Source: a bacterium (GTDB lineage: Bacteria; Bacteroidota; Ignavibacteria; SZUA-365). Taken from it: a stretch of DNA of 64,000 bases. Position numbers and translations under genes: made by a program. The DNA is taken from positions 186,001 through 250,000 of the forward strand of contig JAHLLD010000004.1 of NCBI GenBank assembly GCA_020444325.1. Direction: 5' to 3'. Each line of letters starts with the position of its first letter. The stretch's first letter is position 1. The notes below the pieces were generated by a model that searched no databases, had not been told where the DNA came from, and was given only the letters and a program-made list of their open reading frames with translations. Positions 5,286-13,036 of this stretch are shown piece after piece.

Positions 5286-6449
5286 CTACTTGAGGTACTT
5301 CATGAATGGGAGTCGCTTGCGGATTACCGGGGCGTAAACCGCATAGGCGATGAAAACCGCAATCAGCAGAACGGCAAGTAGAATAGATTGATAAAATTCC
5401 AGGCTGTGCCCCCACCCGGTCTCCATAACGGGATTATACACAATGAGTGAGTGGAGGAAGTAGATTCCCAACGTCTCTTTTGCCGTTGCACGGATCGCAT
5501 GTGGCAGGCGGATCATTTTCGTGAGCAGTCCGATAATGCCGGCGATGATAAGCACTTCCCCGAGTCGATAGTATGTAAAGACGCCATAGCTCAGCCAGTC
5601 AGAATACTCGGTCCACCAATTACTGTAGATGCTGTGCAGAATGCGCCAGGAGTTGGATTTCAGCAGATATCCGGCAACTGGCAGGAGGAGGAACATCCAG
5701 CTGCGTTCATGGAGTCGAAGCTCGAGAACGAGAAATCCCAGTATGGCGCCAGCGAGTGGGAAGCCAAGCCATGTGAGTACAGGGAATGAGGCATGGGCTT
5801 TCAGGACAAAGGGGGAAAACAGCTGCAGCGCACCCGGGAGGCTCTCCTCGAGTGTGATGATGGGACCAAGCACAAAGGCTGCCTGCATCAGTATGAACGC
5901 GGCGACAGGAAATAGCCAGCGAAAATGACGGGTAATGTAGGCAAGTGCAGTGATAACGAATATCCCGACGCCGATGGTTTGCAGGACGTGTGTCCTGGCT
6001 GCCCAGCCCCACAGCCAGTCACTCCCTGTGTATAGATAATCAAACGTTTCAAGGATGAACTGCAGCAGGTAGCCGAGAATAATCAAGCGTCCCCCACGCC
6101 AGAGATTTTTCTTGAGACGTACAGTGTCGATCAAAGCCGGCGTGCGATACAGCAGGTATGCGACGATCAGTCCCGACGCGAAAAAAAATGCCGGAGCCGT
6201 TGCACCACGCATGTGACGCCACATGAAATAAACAGCGTTGCCCGAATCCCGCCAGCTATCCGCCAGTGTCAGTACGATGACATGTCCCTGTAGCATCATC
6301 AGGATCGCGTACGCGCGAATAGCGTCCACGAACTCCAGACGTTCACCCCCGGCGTCGAACTGCCTGTTCCGCCTCCCGTCACGGAGCGTTTTCCAGACAG
6401 CAGCGAGACTCAATCCCTGCAGGCGTACCGTGGTTCTGAGATTCAGCAT
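5286..6449 (-). CDS. Multi-pass membrane acyltransferase-like protein (HGSNAT/DUF1624 or acyltransferase-3 type)
   Basis: A 387-residue integral membrane protein with about ten hydrophobic segments. The segment near residues 41-58 (FVDAIRAYAILMMLQGHV) and the following 'R..GATAPAFFFASG' are typical of the acyltransferase-3 / DUF1624 (heparan-alpha-glucosaminide acetyltransferase-like) group, which moves acyl groups onto carbohydrates or envelope polymers. The last helix region contains LGIYFLHSLIVY, also typical. I infer a role in modifying a surface glycan, but no substrate can be read from the sequence. It converges on the preceding T9SS gene and lies 88 bases upstream of the stop of the sigma-54 activator. 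The ribosome binding site at this ATG is weak. Confidence 0.75.
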   Translation of the reverse strand: MLNLRTTVRLQGLSLAAVWKTLRDGRRNRQFDAGGERLEFVDAIRAYAILMMLQGHVIVLTLADSWRDSGNAVYFMWRHMRGATAPAFFFASGLIVAYLLYRTPALIDTVRLKKNLWRGGRLIILGYLLQFILETFDYLYTGSDWLWGWAARTHVLQTIGVGIFVITALAYITRHFRWLFPVAAFILMQAAFVLGPIITLEESLPGALQLFSPFVLKAHASFPVLTWLGFPLAGAILGFLVLELRLHERSWMFLLLPVAGYLLKSNSWRILHSIYSNWWTEYSDWLSYGVFTYYRLGEVLIIAGIIGLLTKMIRLPHAIRATAKETLGIYFLHSLIVYNPVMETGWGHSLEFYQSILLAVLLIAVFIAYAVYAPVIRKRLPFMKYLK

Positions 6450-6537: not shown

Positions 6538-8091
6538 TCAATGAATCTGTTGGCGACCGTATGGGATTCCCAGTTTCTTCATGCGGTTGCGCAGTGTGCT
6601 TGGATTGATGCCGAGCAATTCCGCCGCGCCGCCTGGACCATGAATCTTGCCTTTCGTCCGCTGCAGGATGTGCTGGATATGGCCTGATACTACAGTGTCG
6701 AGATCTGTGACCGTTCCGGGTTGTGCAATGGGGGCAGGTATTGTCTGCGTCAGCGCTTCAGCGGGAAGCTGGTCAAACGTGATGGGACCCGCGGGATAAA
6801 GGATTAGAGCGCGCTCGACCAGGTTCTGCAGCTCCCGGATATTGCCCGGCCAGTGATACGCGTTAAGCTTTTCCATGGCACCGGGTGCGAGTGGTGGTAC
6901 TGCCGATAGCTTCAGCTCACGTGATTTCTGCTTCAGGAAATGATGGACGAGTTCGGGAATGTCGCTGCGCCTGTCCCGCAGCGGGGGGATCTCGATGGGG
7001 AAAACATTCAGACGGTACCACAGGTCTTCTCGAAATTCCCTGGCGCGGACCATCTCCTGCAGATCCCTGTTCGTTGCTGCAATGATACGGATATCCAGTT
7101 TGATTGTACTGCTTCCTCCGACACGTTCGATTTCCCGGTGCTGCAGTACCCGCAGCAGCCTTGATTGCGCCGCCAGCGGCAGTTCGCCGATCTCGTCAAG
7201 GAATATCGTCCCGTGGTTGGCTCGCTCAAACCGACCGCGTTTCTGCGAAAGTGCCCCCGTAAACGCACCCTTTTCATGACCGAAAAGCTCACTGTCAATC
7301 AGCGTATCGGGGATGGCGCCGCAGTTGACGCCAATGAACGGACCTTCGTTGCGGGAAGAGGAATAGTGGATGGCATTCGCGATCACATCCTTCCCGACAC
7401 CAGTCTCTCCGCTGAGTAGAACCGGGCTGTTGAGTGTGGAAACCTGCCGGACCTTCATCATCACATCGCGCAGACCGAAATTTGCACCGATTATCTCTTC
7501 ACCGGAAATGCGTCGCAGCTCGCCATGCAGATAGCGGTTGTCGTCTGCGAGCAATTCCTTGAGTTTCAGAATCTCCCGATGTTTTAGCGTGTTCGACATC
7601 GCAATGAAAAACGGATCCTTCAGAAGCGCGTAAAGCCGGGCGTGCTCATCCGTATATCTGTCATCTCCTTCGGCGAGAAGAGCGAGTGCACCGAGGACCT
7701 TGCCCTGTGAAATGAGTGGAAGACTCATCGCCGAGCTTATCGGCAGGTCCAGCGCCGAGAGCATGCTGCGAGTAACTGGTTCATCGGCAGGCCTATTCAC
7801 CACGAACACGGAAGGGAGTTCTCCGGCTCGCCAGGCCTCGGCCAGCGTACCAAGCGCCGCATTCGCCGCCTGCGTCACAGGTACAAGCACATCCATCAGC
7901 TCTCCACCTTCTTCAGTTGCACAGGCCACAACCCGCATGCTGCTCAATTCCGGTTCATATCTCTCGAGATAAATCCTCTCCGCTGGCATATGCTGTGCGA
8001 GATAGTGCATACATGAATGCAATCCTTCCTCAATCTCCAGGTGACTGCATATCCGCATCGTGATCTCTCGGAAAAAAACGTTCTCATCCAT
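6538..8091 (-). CDS. Sigma-54-dependent transcriptional activator with N-terminal GAF domain
   Basis: A 517-residue bacterial enhancer-binding protein. Residues about 10-170 form a GAF-like sensor domain. The AAA+ domain (about 205-430) has Walker A GETGVGKD, the sigma-54 contact loop GAFTGA, Walker [11 protein letters not shown] and the Arg finger region [15 protein letters not shown] Fis-type helix-turn-helix closes the protein ([23 protein letters not shown] split by its turn). The architecture matches FhlA/NorR-like activators that sense a small ligand. The start at ATG 8091 (MDENVFF) is preferred over an in-frame ATG 44 codons upstream, because the GAF domain begins directly after it. 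The gene is divergent from the operon at 8291-13036, which it probably controls. Confidence 0.93.
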
Positions 8092-8119
8092 GGTACATGT
8101 CCATGTTGCAATTATTGAT

Positions 8120-8138
8120 TTGTCGCATAAGGCAACAA
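8120..8138. promoter_or_regulatory. Candidate upstream activator site, near-perfect inverted repeat
   Basis: TTGTCGC-ATAAG-GCAACAA is an inverted repeat with 7-bp arms and one mismatch, close to the TGT-N-ACA form used by sigma-54 activators. It lies about 100 bases upstream of a sequence resembling a -24 element (8237-8243) and 29 bases upstream of the activator's own start codon. A second perfect palindrome, CCATATATGG, follows at 8151-8160. Inferred to bind the adjacent activator. Confidence 0.4.
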
Positions 8139-8236
8139 TAGCAATAAATACCATATATGGCAATCCTTTCGTCAAATATGGCAGTTTGCTGATCCATGTC
8201 CAGCCTAAGTTGTTTGTTCGCAAGGCTGAACCTTTC

Positions 8237-8252
8237 TGGCACGGGATTGGAA
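8237..8252 (+). promoter_or_regulatory. Possible sigma-54 promoter (-24 element good, -12 element weak)
   Basis: TGGCACG at 8237-8243 matches the sigma-54 -24 consensus exactly. The expected -12 TTGC is represented only by TTGG one base too close (8247-8250), or TGGA at canonical spacing. It is 39 bases upstream of the ATG at 8291 and about 100 bases downstream of the palindrome at 8120-8138. Location supports it; the -12 mismatch is a real weakness. Confidence 0.35.
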
Positions 8253-8290: not shown

Positions 8291-8569
8291 ATGAGTTTCC
8301 TCGAAATCATTGAAATCAGGTCACACAATGCTGGACACGAGCGGCTGCGACAGACCTTGATCCAGTTTGCACAGGAGATCAATGCGATGATGGGGGATGT
8401 CTCCGTGCGCGTGTTTGCACGGAAGCAGGTGCCATCTGATTTCTCGGTGCATATCGAACATCCGCATGGAAGCAATGTGAATGGGAGTTCACATGTAGGA
8501 TCGCAGCTGCTGTCTGAACTCCGCGGCAAAGGTCTGATCAACCGGACGTTATGGATACAGGAAATCTGA
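8291..8569 (+). CDS. Small conserved-looking protein of unknown function, 92 aa
   Basis: A 92-residue soluble protein starting MSFLEIIEIRSHNAGHERL and ending LINRTLWIQEI. The alternation (strand, amphipathic helix, strands, helix, strand) suggests a small dimeric alpha/beta (ferredoxin-like) fold. I have an unverified impression that similar orphan proteins with an '..DLSIHL...G...S..G..L...L...GL..HT.W' ending occur next to sigma-54 activators, but I cannot name a family. It is the first gene downstream of the proposed sigma-54 promoter and is divergent from the activator, so it may be part of the sensing or the pathway. The ATG at 8291 follows an AAAGGAT box at 8279-8285. Confidence 0.7.
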   Translation: MSFLEIIEIRSHNAGHERLRQTLIQFAQEINAMMGDVSVRVFARKQVPSDFSVHIEHPHGSNVNGSSHVGSQLLSELRGKGLINRTLWIQEI

Positions 8570-8672: not shown

Positions 8673-9539
8673 ATGAAACAGGTTTTGGTTGCCGGAGCGA
8701 CAGGCTACCTTGGCCGCCACCTCGTCAGGGAACTGCATGCCCGGGGGTACAGGGTACGAGCCCTGGCGAGAAATGCGGACAGGCTGCGCAATCTTGAGAC
8801 TTCCATCGATGAAGTTTTTGTTGGTGAAGTCACCGATCCCGGGACGTTACGCGGTGTCTGCAATAATGCCGATGCCGTCATTTCTGCCGTTGGTATCACG
8901 AAGCAGAAGGATGGCCTCAGCTACATGGATGTCGATTACCAGGGGAACAGGAATCTCCTTTCCGAGGCGGAGGATGCAGGAGTAGGGCGGTTCGTCTACG
9001 TATCGGTGTTCACGGCCGGTGAGGCTATGCAGGATCTGGCGATCGTGAAAGCGAAGACGCGCTTTACGAGCTGTCTGAAGAAATCCCGACTCGCACATAC
9101 AATCATATATCCGAATGGATTCTTTTCCGACATGATGGAGTACCTGCACATGGCGGAGAAAGGGAGGGCGTATGTGCTCGGGGATGGAAATGCGAGGGCG
9201 AATCCCATCCATGGAGCGGACCTTGCCGCTGTGACCGTGGATGCGATGGAAAACGAAACGGAAGAAATATCGGTCGGTGGACCGGAGGTTTTCACGCATC
9301 GTGAAATTGCTGCATTGGCGTTCGAGGCGGTTGAGAAACCACCAAAGATCGTGAGGGTACCGACGTGGATTGCAGCGGCGTTGTTGTGGCTGCTGCGGTT
9401 GTGCACCCCCGCACGGATTTATGGACCGCTGGAATTCTTTGTGACGGTCTTATCCCAGGATATGATCGCTCCTGTAAAGGGTATCCGAAAACTATCCGCA
9501 TTCTTTCTGGAAAGTGCATTACTGCAGAGGAGGTCGTGA
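8673..9539 (+). CDS. NmrA-like SDR family NAD(P)-binding protein
   Basis: A 288-residue atypical short-chain dehydrogenase/reductase. The N-terminus has the Rossmann motif GATGYLGRHL (residues 8-17), followed by the basic stretch RVRALARN that favours NADP(H). Mid-protein features are 'ISAVGITKQK' and 'FVYVSVF', with no YxxxK in the usual place, as in NmrA-like members. A hydrophobic segment (WIAAALLWLLRL) lies near residue 235. The start at 8673 is chosen because it has an AAGGA box ten bases upstream and begins the Rossmann strand; the 28 upstream in-frame codons do not fit. It overlaps the next gene by one base (TGATG), so the two are translationally coupled. Likely an oxidoreductase or redox-sensing binding protein of the operon. 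Confidence 0.87.
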   Translation: MKQVLVAGATGYLGRHLVRELHARGYRVRALARNADRLRNLETSIDEVFVGEVTDPGTLRGVCNNADAVISAVGITKQKDGLSYMDVDYQGNRNLLSEAEDAGVGRFVYVSVFTAGEAMQDLAIVKAKTRFTSCLKKSRLAHTIIYPNGFFSDMMEYLHMAEKGRAYVLGDGNARANPIHGADLAAVTVDAMENETEEISVGGPEVFTHREIAALAFEAVEKPPKIVRVPTWIAAALLWLLRLCTPARIYGPLEFFVTVLSQDMIAPVKGIRKLSAFFLESALLQRRS

Positions 9540-10501
9540 TGGCGAACCGCATAGATATACACCACCATCTCATACCCGAGGAATATGTCTCACTGCTGGC
9601 AACTCTTGGAATCAAAGGGACGCCGGCAGTGGACTTTCCCGCCTGGTCACCGGAGAAAGCGCTCAGGGTGATGAAGCAAAACAAGATCGACATAGCCTTA
9701 CTTTCGCTATCCACCCCGGGAAGCTATTTCAAGGATGATGCTTTCTCCTGCAAGCTCACCAGGATGACCAACGAGTACAGTGCCGAGCTCATTGAACGGC
9801 ATCCCGAACGCTTCGGTGCTTTCGCGGCATTGCCCCTGCCGGATGTTGAGGGTGCGCTAGCAGAAATAAATTACGCCTTTGACACTCTCGGACTCGATGG
9901 TGTCGGACTCCTTACAAACTACGAAGGTCGCTATCTGGGGGACCCTCTTTTCGAGAAGGTCTTCGACGAGTTGAATCGCCGGAAGGCCGTGGTCTTTGTG
10001 CATCCCACCGATTACCTGGTCATGGAGGAGCGCTACGCCATGCTGACCCCGATTCTCGAACGGTTGCTGGAGACCACACGGGCGGTCACCAATCTGCTGA
10101 TGTCGGGTACACTGTCGCGGTATCCGGACATCCGCTTCATCCTTGCCCACGGTGGCGGATCGGTGCCTTACCTGGCCGAGCGTATCGCCGTTGGAATGGA
10201 CGATGCCGCGCACGCAGCACTCGACCGTGGAATGCGTGCACCTGTTGATATCGATGAAGGTCTCGAACTACTGAGACGTCTGTATTTCGACACGGCACAG
10301 CCCGGGGACGCACATCTCTGGACGGTGAAGGAGTTCGCAGGTGTTGAGCATATCCTCTTCGGTACCGACTCCGGCTGGGTGACTCCGATTGACTCGCGCC
10401 TCACAACCAAAGCAATTGCAACGTTCAGCGGATTCAGCAAATCCCAGCAGAAACTTGTCGACCGCGAAAACGCTCTCACTTTGTTTCCCCGCTTTGCGTA
10501 A
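9539..10501 (+). CDS. ACMSD-type metal-dependent amidohydrolase/decarboxylase (intact active site)
   Basis: A 320-residue member of the amidohydrolase_2 family, which includes aminocarboxymuconate-semialdehyde decarboxylase and 6-methylsalicylate-type decarboxylases. By alignment with the ACMSD pattern the metal and catalytic positions are all present: HxH (His8, His10), His155 in VFVHP, His204 in AHGGG and Asp277 in FGTDSG. The protein is probably cytoplasmic and acts on a small aromatic or unsaturated carboxylate, releasing CO2 or water; the substrate cannot be read. A GAGGAGG-like box precedes the ATG. It is the first of two tandem paralogues; the second begins 13 bases after this stop. 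Confidence 0.9.
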   Translation: MANRIDIHHHLIPEEYVSLLATLGIKGTPAVDFPAWSPEKALRVMKQNKIDIALLSLSTPGSYFKDDAFSCKLTRMTNEYSAELIERHPERFGAFAALPLPDVEGALAEINYAFDTLGLDGVGLLTNYEGRYLGDPLFEKVFDELNRRKAVVFVHPTDYLVMEERYAMLTPILERLLETTRAVTNLLMSGTLSRYPDIRFILAHGGGSVPYLAERIAVGMDDAAHAALDRGMRAPVDIDEGLELLRRLYFDTAQPGDAHLWTVKEFAGVEHILFGTDSGWVTPIDSRLTTKAIATFSGFSKSQQKLVDRENALTLFPRFA

Positions 10502-10514
10502 TTGGAGATTTATC

Positions 10515-11402
10515 ATGTCAGGAACTATCTCAAATATTGATATCCATCATCACATGCTGCCCCCGTTCTATATCGAAGCCTTGAAGCGAAATGGCATTGA
10601 TGTACGCACGCTGCCTGATTGGTCCCCCGAAGCCTCCGTCAGCATGATGGATGCGCTGGGTATTGAGAAGGCAATGCTGTCCGTGCCGTCTCCCGTGGGA
10701 TGTGACCGGGAGGTTACGCGTTCCATCAATGCATATGCCTCACAGATCAGACGTTCGCATCCGGCGAGATTCGGAGTATTTGCATCCATTCCTTTCCCGG
10801 ATGTTGATGCTTCAATCCGCGAAATTGGCTTCGCCCTGGATTCACTTTCACTCGATGGCGTTATCTGCTTTTCCAATGTTGATGGCGCATACCTCGGGGA
10901 TCCGGAATATGACGCTATCCTTGATGAACTCAATCATCGACATGCCATGGTTTTTGTCCACTCGAATGATCGTCCGGGAATAGAAGACCATACAGCGTCA
11001 GATCCTTTTGTGGAATATCCCATGGACGTATCCCGCGCATACGCTCGACTGGTTTACAGCCACGCCTTTGAGCGATTTCGCAACATCCGCTGGGTGTTCG
11101 CGGGTGCGGGGGGTGTCGTTCCTTTCCTGGCTGAAAGGATAGGGAAGCTTCACTACGTGAACGGAAAGAACCTTCGATGGGGACGCGTCATCGCCGACCT
11201 GGTGATGAAGCGAAACAGCGGACGGGATCTGGCCAAGACTGTTTCCTACGACACTGCCGATATCGGAATTCATTACACTCTGTACGGACTCGAACACCTG
11301 GTTGATCGCGACAGGATTCGCTTTGGCTCGAATTTCCCTTTCTCAGACAAAACAATATCTGGACAGATGCTTCATGTGCTCAACAGCAGAAGTCCGGTAT
11401 AA
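10515..11402 (+). CDS. ACMSD-family paralogue with altered active site
   Basis: A 295-residue paralogue of the preceding protein; both share the DIHHH start, the PDV...EI.FALD.L.LDG segment and the PFLAERI segment. It keeps HxH (His11, His13) and the VFVH histidine (His149). The AHGGG histidine is replaced by glycine (FAGAGG, residue 197), and the metal-binding aspartate of GTD is replaced by asparagine (FGSNFPF, residue 273). In the ACMSD family these correspond to the catalytic His and a metal ligand, so decarboxylase chemistry is unlikely. ACMSD-type enzymes act as dimers, so this could be a regulatory partner of the first copy. A GGAG box lies nine bases before the ATG. Confidence 0.85.
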   Translation: MSGTISNIDIHHHMLPPFYIEALKRNGIDVRTLPDWSPEASVSMMDALGIEKAMLSVPSPVGCDREVTRSINAYASQIRRSHPARFGVFASIPFPDVDASIREIGFALDSLSLDGVICFSNVDGAYLGDPEYDAILDELNHRHAMVFVHSNDRPGIEDHTASDPFVEYPMDVSRAYARLVYSHAFERFRNIRWVFAGAGGVVPFLAERIGKLHYVNGKNLRWGRVIADLVMKRNSGRDLAKTVSYDTADIGIHYTLYGLEHLVDRDRIRFGSNFPFSDKTISGQMLHVLNSRSPV

Positions 11403-11516: not shown

Positions 11517-12527
11517 ATGAGCACACAACGCAACTTTCAGGTCCGACTTGCCAGCCGTCCTGACGGGATTCCAGCTCGAGAGCATTGGGAACTGGGTTGG
11601 AGCGATATCGACAGTCCATCTGATGGCGAAGTCCTCATCGAAACAGCCTTCATTTCAATCGACCCATCAATGCGTGGGTGGTTGAGAGACACGGAATCAT
11701 ACCTTCCTCCAGTAGCGATCGGTGACGTGATGAGAGCGGGAGGAGTCGGTACTGTAATCGTCTCAAAGCACCCGGACTTCAAGGAAGGGGACCAGGTCGT
11801 CGGACATCCAGGCGTTCAGTCTTATGCTGTTGTGCCCGGGAGTACGCTGCGAAAAGCCAGTCAAGACGTTGCGCCACTGCACGCATTTCTGGGGCCACTG
11901 GGCATACCAGGACTGACGGCGTATTTCGGTATTACCGAAGTGGGTGCTGTTGGTGAAGGAGATACGGTTCTCGTTTCCGCTGCTGCTGGAGCCGTGGGAT
12001 CCATCGCTGGTCAGATTGCCCGAATGCGGGGTGCGGGACGCGTCATTGGCATAGCAGGAAGTGATGAAAAGTGCCGGCACATCGTCAAGGACCTTGGGTT
12101 TGACGCTGCGATCAACTACAGAACTCAAGCAGTGGGGAACAGGATCAGCGACCATGCTCCCGAAGGGATTGATGTTTATTTCGACAACGTCGGTGGGGAT
12201 ATTCTCGACGAAGCGCTCGCGCGCCTCCGTATTGGAGGAAGGGTCGTTCTCTGCGGTGCCATCTCCCAGTACAACGACCTGGAAAACGTGCGGGGACCGA
12301 GAAACTACCTGTCGCTCCTTGTCAAACGAGCACGAATGCAGGGATTTATCGTTACCGATTTTGCAAAACAATTCCAGAGTGCAATCGAAGAAATCTCGGG
12401 ATTGCTTGCAGCAGGTTCGCTCAGGTACCGGCATACCATCGTGCAGGGCCTCGAGACCTTTCCGGAGACTTTTCAAAGACTCTTTACCGGAGAAAAACTC
12501 GGCAAGCTTCTCATACAGGTTGATTGA
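11517..12527 (+). CDS. NADP-dependent medium-chain reductase, CurA / prostaglandin-reductase type
   Basis: A 336-residue zinc-independent MDR-family enzyme of the leukotriene B4 dehydrogenase / curcumin reductase group, which reduces the C=C bond of alpha,beta-unsaturated carbonyls with NADPH. Visible are the N-terminal 'ISIDPSMRGWL' strand typical of this group, the GVGTVIVSKHPDFKEGDQV region, the Rossmann motif AAAGAVGSIAGQIA (about 155-168), the YFDNVGG motif and the C-terminal GKLLIQV. The ATG at 11517 has GGAG ten bases upstream. It is the fifth gene of the apparent operon, 114 bases after the second amidohydrolase. Together with the SDR it points to reduction of reactive carbonyl intermediates. 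Confidence 0.92.
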   Translation: MSTQRNFQVRLASRPDGIPAREHWELGWSDIDSPSDGEVLIETAFISIDPSMRGWLRDTESYLPPVAIGDVMRAGGVGTVIVSKHPDFKEGDQVVGHPGVQSYAVVPGSTLRKASQDVAPLHAFLGPLGIPGLTAYFGITEVGAVGEGDTVLVSAAAGAVGSIAGQIARMRGAGRVIGIAGSDEKCRHIVKDLGFDAAINYRTQAVGNRISDHAPEGIDVYFDNVGGDILDEALARLRIGGRVVLCGAISQYNDLENVRGPRNYLSLLVKRARMQGFIVTDFAKQFQSAIEEISGLLAAGSLRYRHTIVQGLETFPETFQRLFTGEKLGKLLIQVD

Positions 12528-12559: not shown

Positions 12560-13036
12560 ATGAGTATCATTCTGGATGCACTGCTGGGCGGCGTTGCCGC
12601 AACTGTGACAATGGACCTGCTAACGGGCATCGCGAGGCGGTTCCGATTCGCCGAAGGTGCAAAGGGTGCATGGGTCGGCCGATGGTATCTGGGCATGCTT
12701 CATGGACGATGGGTGCATGCGGATATCAGTACATCTCCTGAATGCAGGGGGGAAAAGACCGCTTCACTGGCGGGGCATTATATGATTGGCACCGTACTTG
12801 CCGCCGTCTATGTGCACGGTGCCGGATGGCTGGGCCTGTCGCCGGAAAGCCTTCCGAATGCTGTCGGCTTCGGCATCGCCACAGTTATCTTCCCACTCTT
12901 CCTCGTGTATCCAGGATTGGGATTCGGCTGTTGTGGCCGCAGGGTATCGCAGTTGAAACCATTGCAGACCAGCTACCTGAGCCACATCTTCTACGGCATC
13001 GGGCTCTGGTGGAGTATGTTGGTGTTCATGAAATGA
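12560..13036 (+). CDS. DUF2938-like membrane protein
   Basis: A 158-residue protein with four predicted membrane segments. It begins MSIILDALLGGVAATVTMDL, carries a GRWYLGML...HADI loop, and ends in a 'SYLSHIFYGIGLWW' segment; these features fit the DUF2938 family of small membrane proteins of unknown function. A TTG start twelve codons upstream would overlap the preceding gene by four bases, but the ATG at 12560 begins the conserved part and is preferred. It is the last gene of the operon, 32 bases after the reductase. The role is unknown; a transport or export partner for the pathway is possible but not supported directly. Confidence 0.75.
   Translation: MSIILDALLGGVAATVTMDLLTGIARRFRFAEGAKGAWVGRWYLGMLHGRWVHADISTSPECRGEKTASLAGHYMIGTVLAAVYVHGAGWLGLSPESLPNAVGFGIATVIFPLFLVYPGLGFGCCGRRVSQLKPLQTSYLSHIFYGIGLWWSMLVFMK

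Follow-up and report, generated by a model that had tools for sequence, protein, structure and literature searches.

ACMSD binds its metal through His9, His11, His177 and Asp294, with His228 activating the metal-bound water (PMC11650718). The enzyme works as a dimer and the monomer is inactive; Arg239/Arg235 reaches the active site of the neighbouring subunit, the R239A substitution abolishes activity, and half-of-sites reactivity has been reported (PMC11650718, PMC9021598, PMC10143591). As far as we have found, the ACMSD family is so far known only as homo-oligomers, and our literature search returned no report of a pseudoenzyme partner within it. Pseudoenzyme partners of active enzymes are themselves of an already known kind: the trypanosome AdoMetDC-prozyme heterodimer activates (PMC5201418), and in Pseudomonas an inactive dihydroorotase (pDHO), a pseudo-subunit from the amidohydrolase superfamily, is needed for ATCase activity (PMC7053772).

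We describe here two neighbouring genes, c1 and c2, that encode an intact and a degenerate Amidohydro_2 protein respectively. The pair is similar to AdoMetDC-prozyme in that an apparently dead paralogue is conserved together with an active partner, although AdoMetDC-prozyme has another fold, is eukaryotic and is a proven heterodimer, whereas a c1-c2 heterodimer is put forward here on comparative grounds. With ATCase-pDHO it shares a bacterial setting and a putative pseudo-subunit from the amidohydrolase superfamily, although the partner of pDHO is an unrelated transcarbamoylase and the putative partner of c2 is its paralogue c1. The genes lie 13 bases apart on the + strand of a 64,000-nucleotide stretch of DNA (the window) from an uncultured Ignavibacteria-type bacterium. 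The same operon is held by a congener, G001 (an uncultured Ignavibacteria MAG contig), and two further genomes of the genus are referred to as G002 and G003. The features of the window are:

6538-8223, - strand: divergent regulator with GAF, sigma-54-activator and HTH_8 domains (PF00158, PF13185, PF02954)
8291-8569, + strand: 92-aa ORF without a Pfam match; in the same place in G001, 61.5% identical over 91 aa
8670-9539, + strand: NmrA-like NAD(P)-binding SDR (Pfam PF13460/PF05368); orthologues in G001 and G003
9539-10501, + strand: c1, 320 aa, intact Amidohydro_2 protein (Pfam PF04909, E=1.5e-32, and alignment of the catalytic columns)
10515-11402, + strand: c2, 295 aa, degenerate Amidohydro_2 protein (Pfam PF04909, E=1.7e-12, and column alignment)
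11049-11168, + strand: c2 residues 179-218, the stretch of this protein with the highest conservation, helix and loop with G197 and R208; 38/40 identical between species
11517-12527, + strand: CurA-like NADPH-dependent medium-chain reductase (PF16884; NF058644 at 352 bits, under its cut-off of 440)
12563-13036, + strand: DUF2938 protein (PF11158, E=2.1e-26); orthologue in G001

These boundaries agree with the original prediction, which had placed the pair at 9539-11402: c1 runs from an ATG at 9539 through a stop to 10501, and c2 from an ATG at 10515 through a stop to 11402. The stop of the NmrA-like SDR overlaps the start of c1 at position 9539, c2 is preceded by the ribosome-binding site GGAG, and the 92-aa ORF is probably the real first gene of the operon. 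The order in G001 is regulator, small ORF, NmrA SDR, c1, c2, CurA-like reductase and DUF2938.

Both proteins pass the Pfam gathering cut-off for Amidohydro_2 (26.4 bits), c1 with 114 bits and c2 with 48.1 bits, and the NCBIfam models matched neither. The motifs of c1 are IDIHHH, VFVHP, AHGGG and FGTDS, and those of c2 are IDIHHH, VFVHS, AGAGG and FGSNF. In the alignment, the ACMSD columns His9, His11, His177, His228 and Asp294 are occupied in c1 by H8, H10, H155, H204 and D277, the whole metal-ligand set together with the catalytic His, and in c2 by H11, H13, H149, G197 and N273, so that the three metal histidines are retained but the catalytic position is Gly and the metal Asp position is Asn. 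It had been read from the translations that c1 is intact and that c2 has exchanged its catalytic His for Gly and its metal Asp for Asn, and the substitutions do fall exactly on the His228 and Asp294 columns, which are H and D in all 44 relatives except c2 and its G001 orthologue. A further change converts VFVHP to VFVHS (c1 P156, c2 S150), both c2 proteins have VS in place of TT, and the c2 C-terminus is shorter by about 20-25 residues. Overall, 24 intact subfamily members share 54 conserved columns, of which c2 keeps 42; among the strictly invariant columns it departs only at P156, H204 and D277 (c1 numbering), all of them in active-site motifs; three random changes among the 22 invariant columns would all fall in the seven that we ourselves class as active-site motif in ~2% of draws, a post hoc figure. 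The trans-arginine column contains R215 in c1 and R208 in c2, and is Arg in every aligned sequence. We also note that a near-invariant family Gly (c1 G190) is replaced by His183 (window 11061-11063) in both c2 proteins; this His is conserved and is a possible new functional residue.

The two positions that have changed naturally in c2 have been changed singly in the laboratory mutants PfACMSD H228G (4EPK) and isoorotate decarboxylase (IDCase) D323N (4LAK/4LAM), whereas c2 has both changes. The H228G crystals contain a dimer with metal still bound (PMC9021598), and isoorotate decarboxylase D323N (4LAM) and D323A (4LAL) are mutant forms solved with 5-carboxyl-uracil; the 4EPK structure and that of 4LAM, which was solved with substrate, show that the relevant mutants stay folded. 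An AlphaFold model of c2, built from a four-sequence alignment, is a low-confidence barrel (pLDDT 55.1, pTM 0.60) with pLDDT below 50 after residue 197, and was therefore not used for geometry; viral contigs searched for a deeper alignment encoded no relative. The best PDB matches of the model are 2f6k, 5-carboxyvanillate decarboxylase and ACMSD, and the prediction confirms the fold class of c2, and the fold class only. Among solved structures, 2f6k of the LP_2961-like Amidohydro_2 subfamily, which has no assigned function, is the closest to both proteins in sequence and to c2 in fold.

The pair had been described as ACMSD-type, which holds for the catalytic positions of c1 but not for its identity as ACMSD. 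Both proteins resemble ACMSD: c1 has the fold, the HxH/His/Asp metal site, the catalytic His and an Arg at the trans-arginine column, and c2 has the metal histidines and likewise an Arg at that column. They differ from it in that both are gapped where the genome's own ACMSD has a ~20-residue loop containing R48, which the numbering offset equates with Arg51, and in that c2 has no His228 or Asp294 equivalent. Both lie outside the ACMSD clade with tree support of 100/100 and belong to a different subfamily of Amidohydro_2; the canonical ACMSD of this genome is encoded on another contig (C10; L023 9705-16748) in a kynurenine operon. We therefore reject the assignment of c1 as ACMSD, since it has no Arg51 loop, falls outside the clade and coexists with a true ACMSD elsewhere. 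The genes beside the canonical ACMSD look like kynurenine 3-monooxygenase and tryptophan 2,3-dioxygenase. The clusters that contain relatives of c1 resemble those for aromatic degradation and also encode hydroxylases, VOC and FAH proteins. This context suggests that c1 decarboxylates or cleaves an acid derived from an aromatic compound; the substrate is probably an acidic aromatic or enoic molecule that would undergo decarboxylation or C-C/C-O cleavage. The fungal 6-methylsalicylate decarboxylase presumably resembles the c1/c2 subfamily. The single-copy relatives examined in these clusters are intact and unpaired, in contrast to the intact/degenerate pair formed by c1 and c2.

The conservation of the pair in relatives bears directly on whether c2 is functional. 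The c2 protein of G001 is 73% identical to that of the window and has identical His to Gly and Asp to Asn changes, so that both the pair and the two substitutions are conserved in this congener, and since G001 is an independently assembled second species, sequencing error is ruled out as their source. Between the window species and G001 the c2 dN/dS is 0.13-0.16 (NG86 or YN00); c1 gives 0.09, the SDR about 0.14 and the reductase about 0.12-0.15, and c2 is thus under purifying selection like that of its operon neighbours, as an earlier hint of selection had indicated. The dS between the two species exceeds 1, a long period for a non-functional gene to remain undamaged. That c2 is a gene in the early stages of loss, hitch-hiking in the operon, might be suggested by its presence in two species only, the length of its stem branch (2.27 changes per column) and its lost C-terminus, although with an open frame, a ribosome-binding site, dN/dS of about 0.13-0.16 at dS > 1 and identical substitutions in two species this reading is largely refuted and we consider it very improbable; recent decay in particular is rejected by the conserved substitutions and the dN/dS. 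Conserved catalytic residues have been lost from c2 in both species while selection and the fold are retained, as in a pseudoenzyme, and c1 adjoins c2 in both genomes that have c2, a co-occurrence of the prozyme type. We conclude that c2 is kept by selection: instead of decaying, the gene probably encodes a functional helper subunit.

The distribution of the pair is narrow. Orthologues of c2 were found in two species only, among 16 genomes of the order, 391 of the class and 395 of the phylum together with a scan of 85,000 species genomes, which used two N-terminal peptide patterns and was not exhaustive. An intact second copy, which would have indicated recent decay, was looked for across the same order, class, phylum and 85,000-genome sets and not found; the other relatives that we checked are all intact, with no intact/degenerate pair among those examined. 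In the tree c1 clusters with G002 and G278 proteins (91/88), and c2 is a long branch that does not place with any one group. The identity between c1 and c2 is 35%, that between c2 and other relatives is 35-38%, and that between c1 and its plasmid and G002 relatives is 40-44%. Thus the description of the genes as a tandem pair is correct as to their adjacency but not as to their grouping as recent duplicates: a recent duplication of c1 to give c2 is unsupported, as c1-c2 identity is not above that of c2 with the others and the tree groups c1 elsewhere.

The preferred model is that c2 is a selected pseudoenzyme and that c1 and c2 form a heterodimer in which c1 provides the metal site and c2 the trans-arginine and interface, a reading to which we assign a probability of about one half. 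The two chains would assemble as an ACMSD-type heterodimer, and an active site would be composed of the metal site of one chain and the arginine of the other, with c1 supplying the complete metal/His site and c2 supplying R208 and the interface. The c2 pocket would itself be inactive for canonical metal-hydroxide chemistry and could act as a scaffold or effector pocket. The role of the arginine in the c1/c2 subfamily is transferred by analogy with ACMSD. The sequences, their conservation, the selection on them and their operon linkage are shown directly; the function of R208, the physical association, the inactivity of c2 and the nature of the reaction are inferred. A more demanding version, in which c1 by itself has little or no activity and c2 completes its site by the trans-arginine as a bacterial 'prozyme', we advance tentatively.

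The pattern of conservation is consistent with a division of this kind. Identity between the two species was compared in 40-residue stretches with permutation p values, a post hoc test on one species pair. The best stretch of c2 is 179-218 (38/40, p=0.014; c1 counterpart 28/38), which covers the Gly-rich loop that contains G197 and the R208 helix, and the best of c1 is 251-290, the loop of the metal Asp D277 (38/40, not significant as a maximum at p=0.23; c2 counterpart 26/37); the N273 loop of c2 is conserved no more than the c2 average. It is suggestive, from these alignments, that each chain appears to keep the half that one composite site would need. Shared rare residues gave no excess that would indicate interface co-adaptation (13 for c1-c2 versus 18 for c2-G002). 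Counting against the heterodimer, the single intact copy of G002 has no partner, and a partner is thus not required by the family. The Glu preceding the trans-arginine is rare and is common to c1 and c2.

Two other readings also make c2 a functional protein. In one, c2 is a homo-oligomeric enzyme of altered chemistry with a three-His metal site and no acid/base His, for example a tautomerase or isomerase acting on the substrate or product of c1. All three metal histidines are kept, the pocket region is strongly conserved, His183 and the VS for TT change are conserved in both c2 proteins, and H228A ACMSD retains oxaloacetate tautomerase activity (kcat 2.98 versus 6.51 per s) while its decarboxylation falls about 142-fold (PMC11650718). 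We nonetheless consider this reading possible but rather doubtful, as c2 has lost both its catalytic His and its metal Asp, the N273 loop is not conserved above average, and the D323N and D323A forms of isoorotate decarboxylase are ligand-bound mutants. In the other, which we think unlikely, c2 does not associate with c1 and serves the operon as a non-catalytic, ligand-binding sensor or carrier: the pocket is conserved despite loss of the catalytic residues and c2 is linked to a GAF-type sigma-54 regulator, but it is the trans-arginine helix, and not only the pocket, that is the most conserved part of c2, and the regulator also occurs without c2 (G002 and G003).

The c1-c2 heterodimer would be informative because sites in the ACMSD family are shared between subunits, and a natural intact/dead pair would show which chain supplies what; the pair would also offer a test of how half-of-sites enzymes can evolve into catalytic and helper subunits. 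If c2 is instead active, the chemistry of a well-studied fold would be extended. A database annotating c1 and c2 alike as 'amidohydrolase' would misassign c2.

The divergent regulator likely controls the c1/c2 operon. Its orthologues lie beside the operon in G001 and, in G002, with 72% identity, beside the single intact, partnerless relative; G003 has the regulator and the NmrA SDR without c1 or c2. The search for a sigma-54 -24/-12 site upstream of the operon gave a sole, poor candidate at 8237 with two mismatches, at chance level. The genes adjacent to the regulator are one intact amidohydrolase in G002 (L022 1148-3899) and a ketopantoate-reductase-like protein with two SDRs in G003 (L066 575-5432). 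As these congener loci differ, the regulator locus carries a varying enzyme cargo, with the c1/c2 pair belonging to one lineage. An Acyl_transf_3 membrane protein (5286-6449, - strand) adjoins the regulator in the window, and G003 encodes a close relative (L067 4632-5774) on a contig where a second, partial copy of the regulator is also found.
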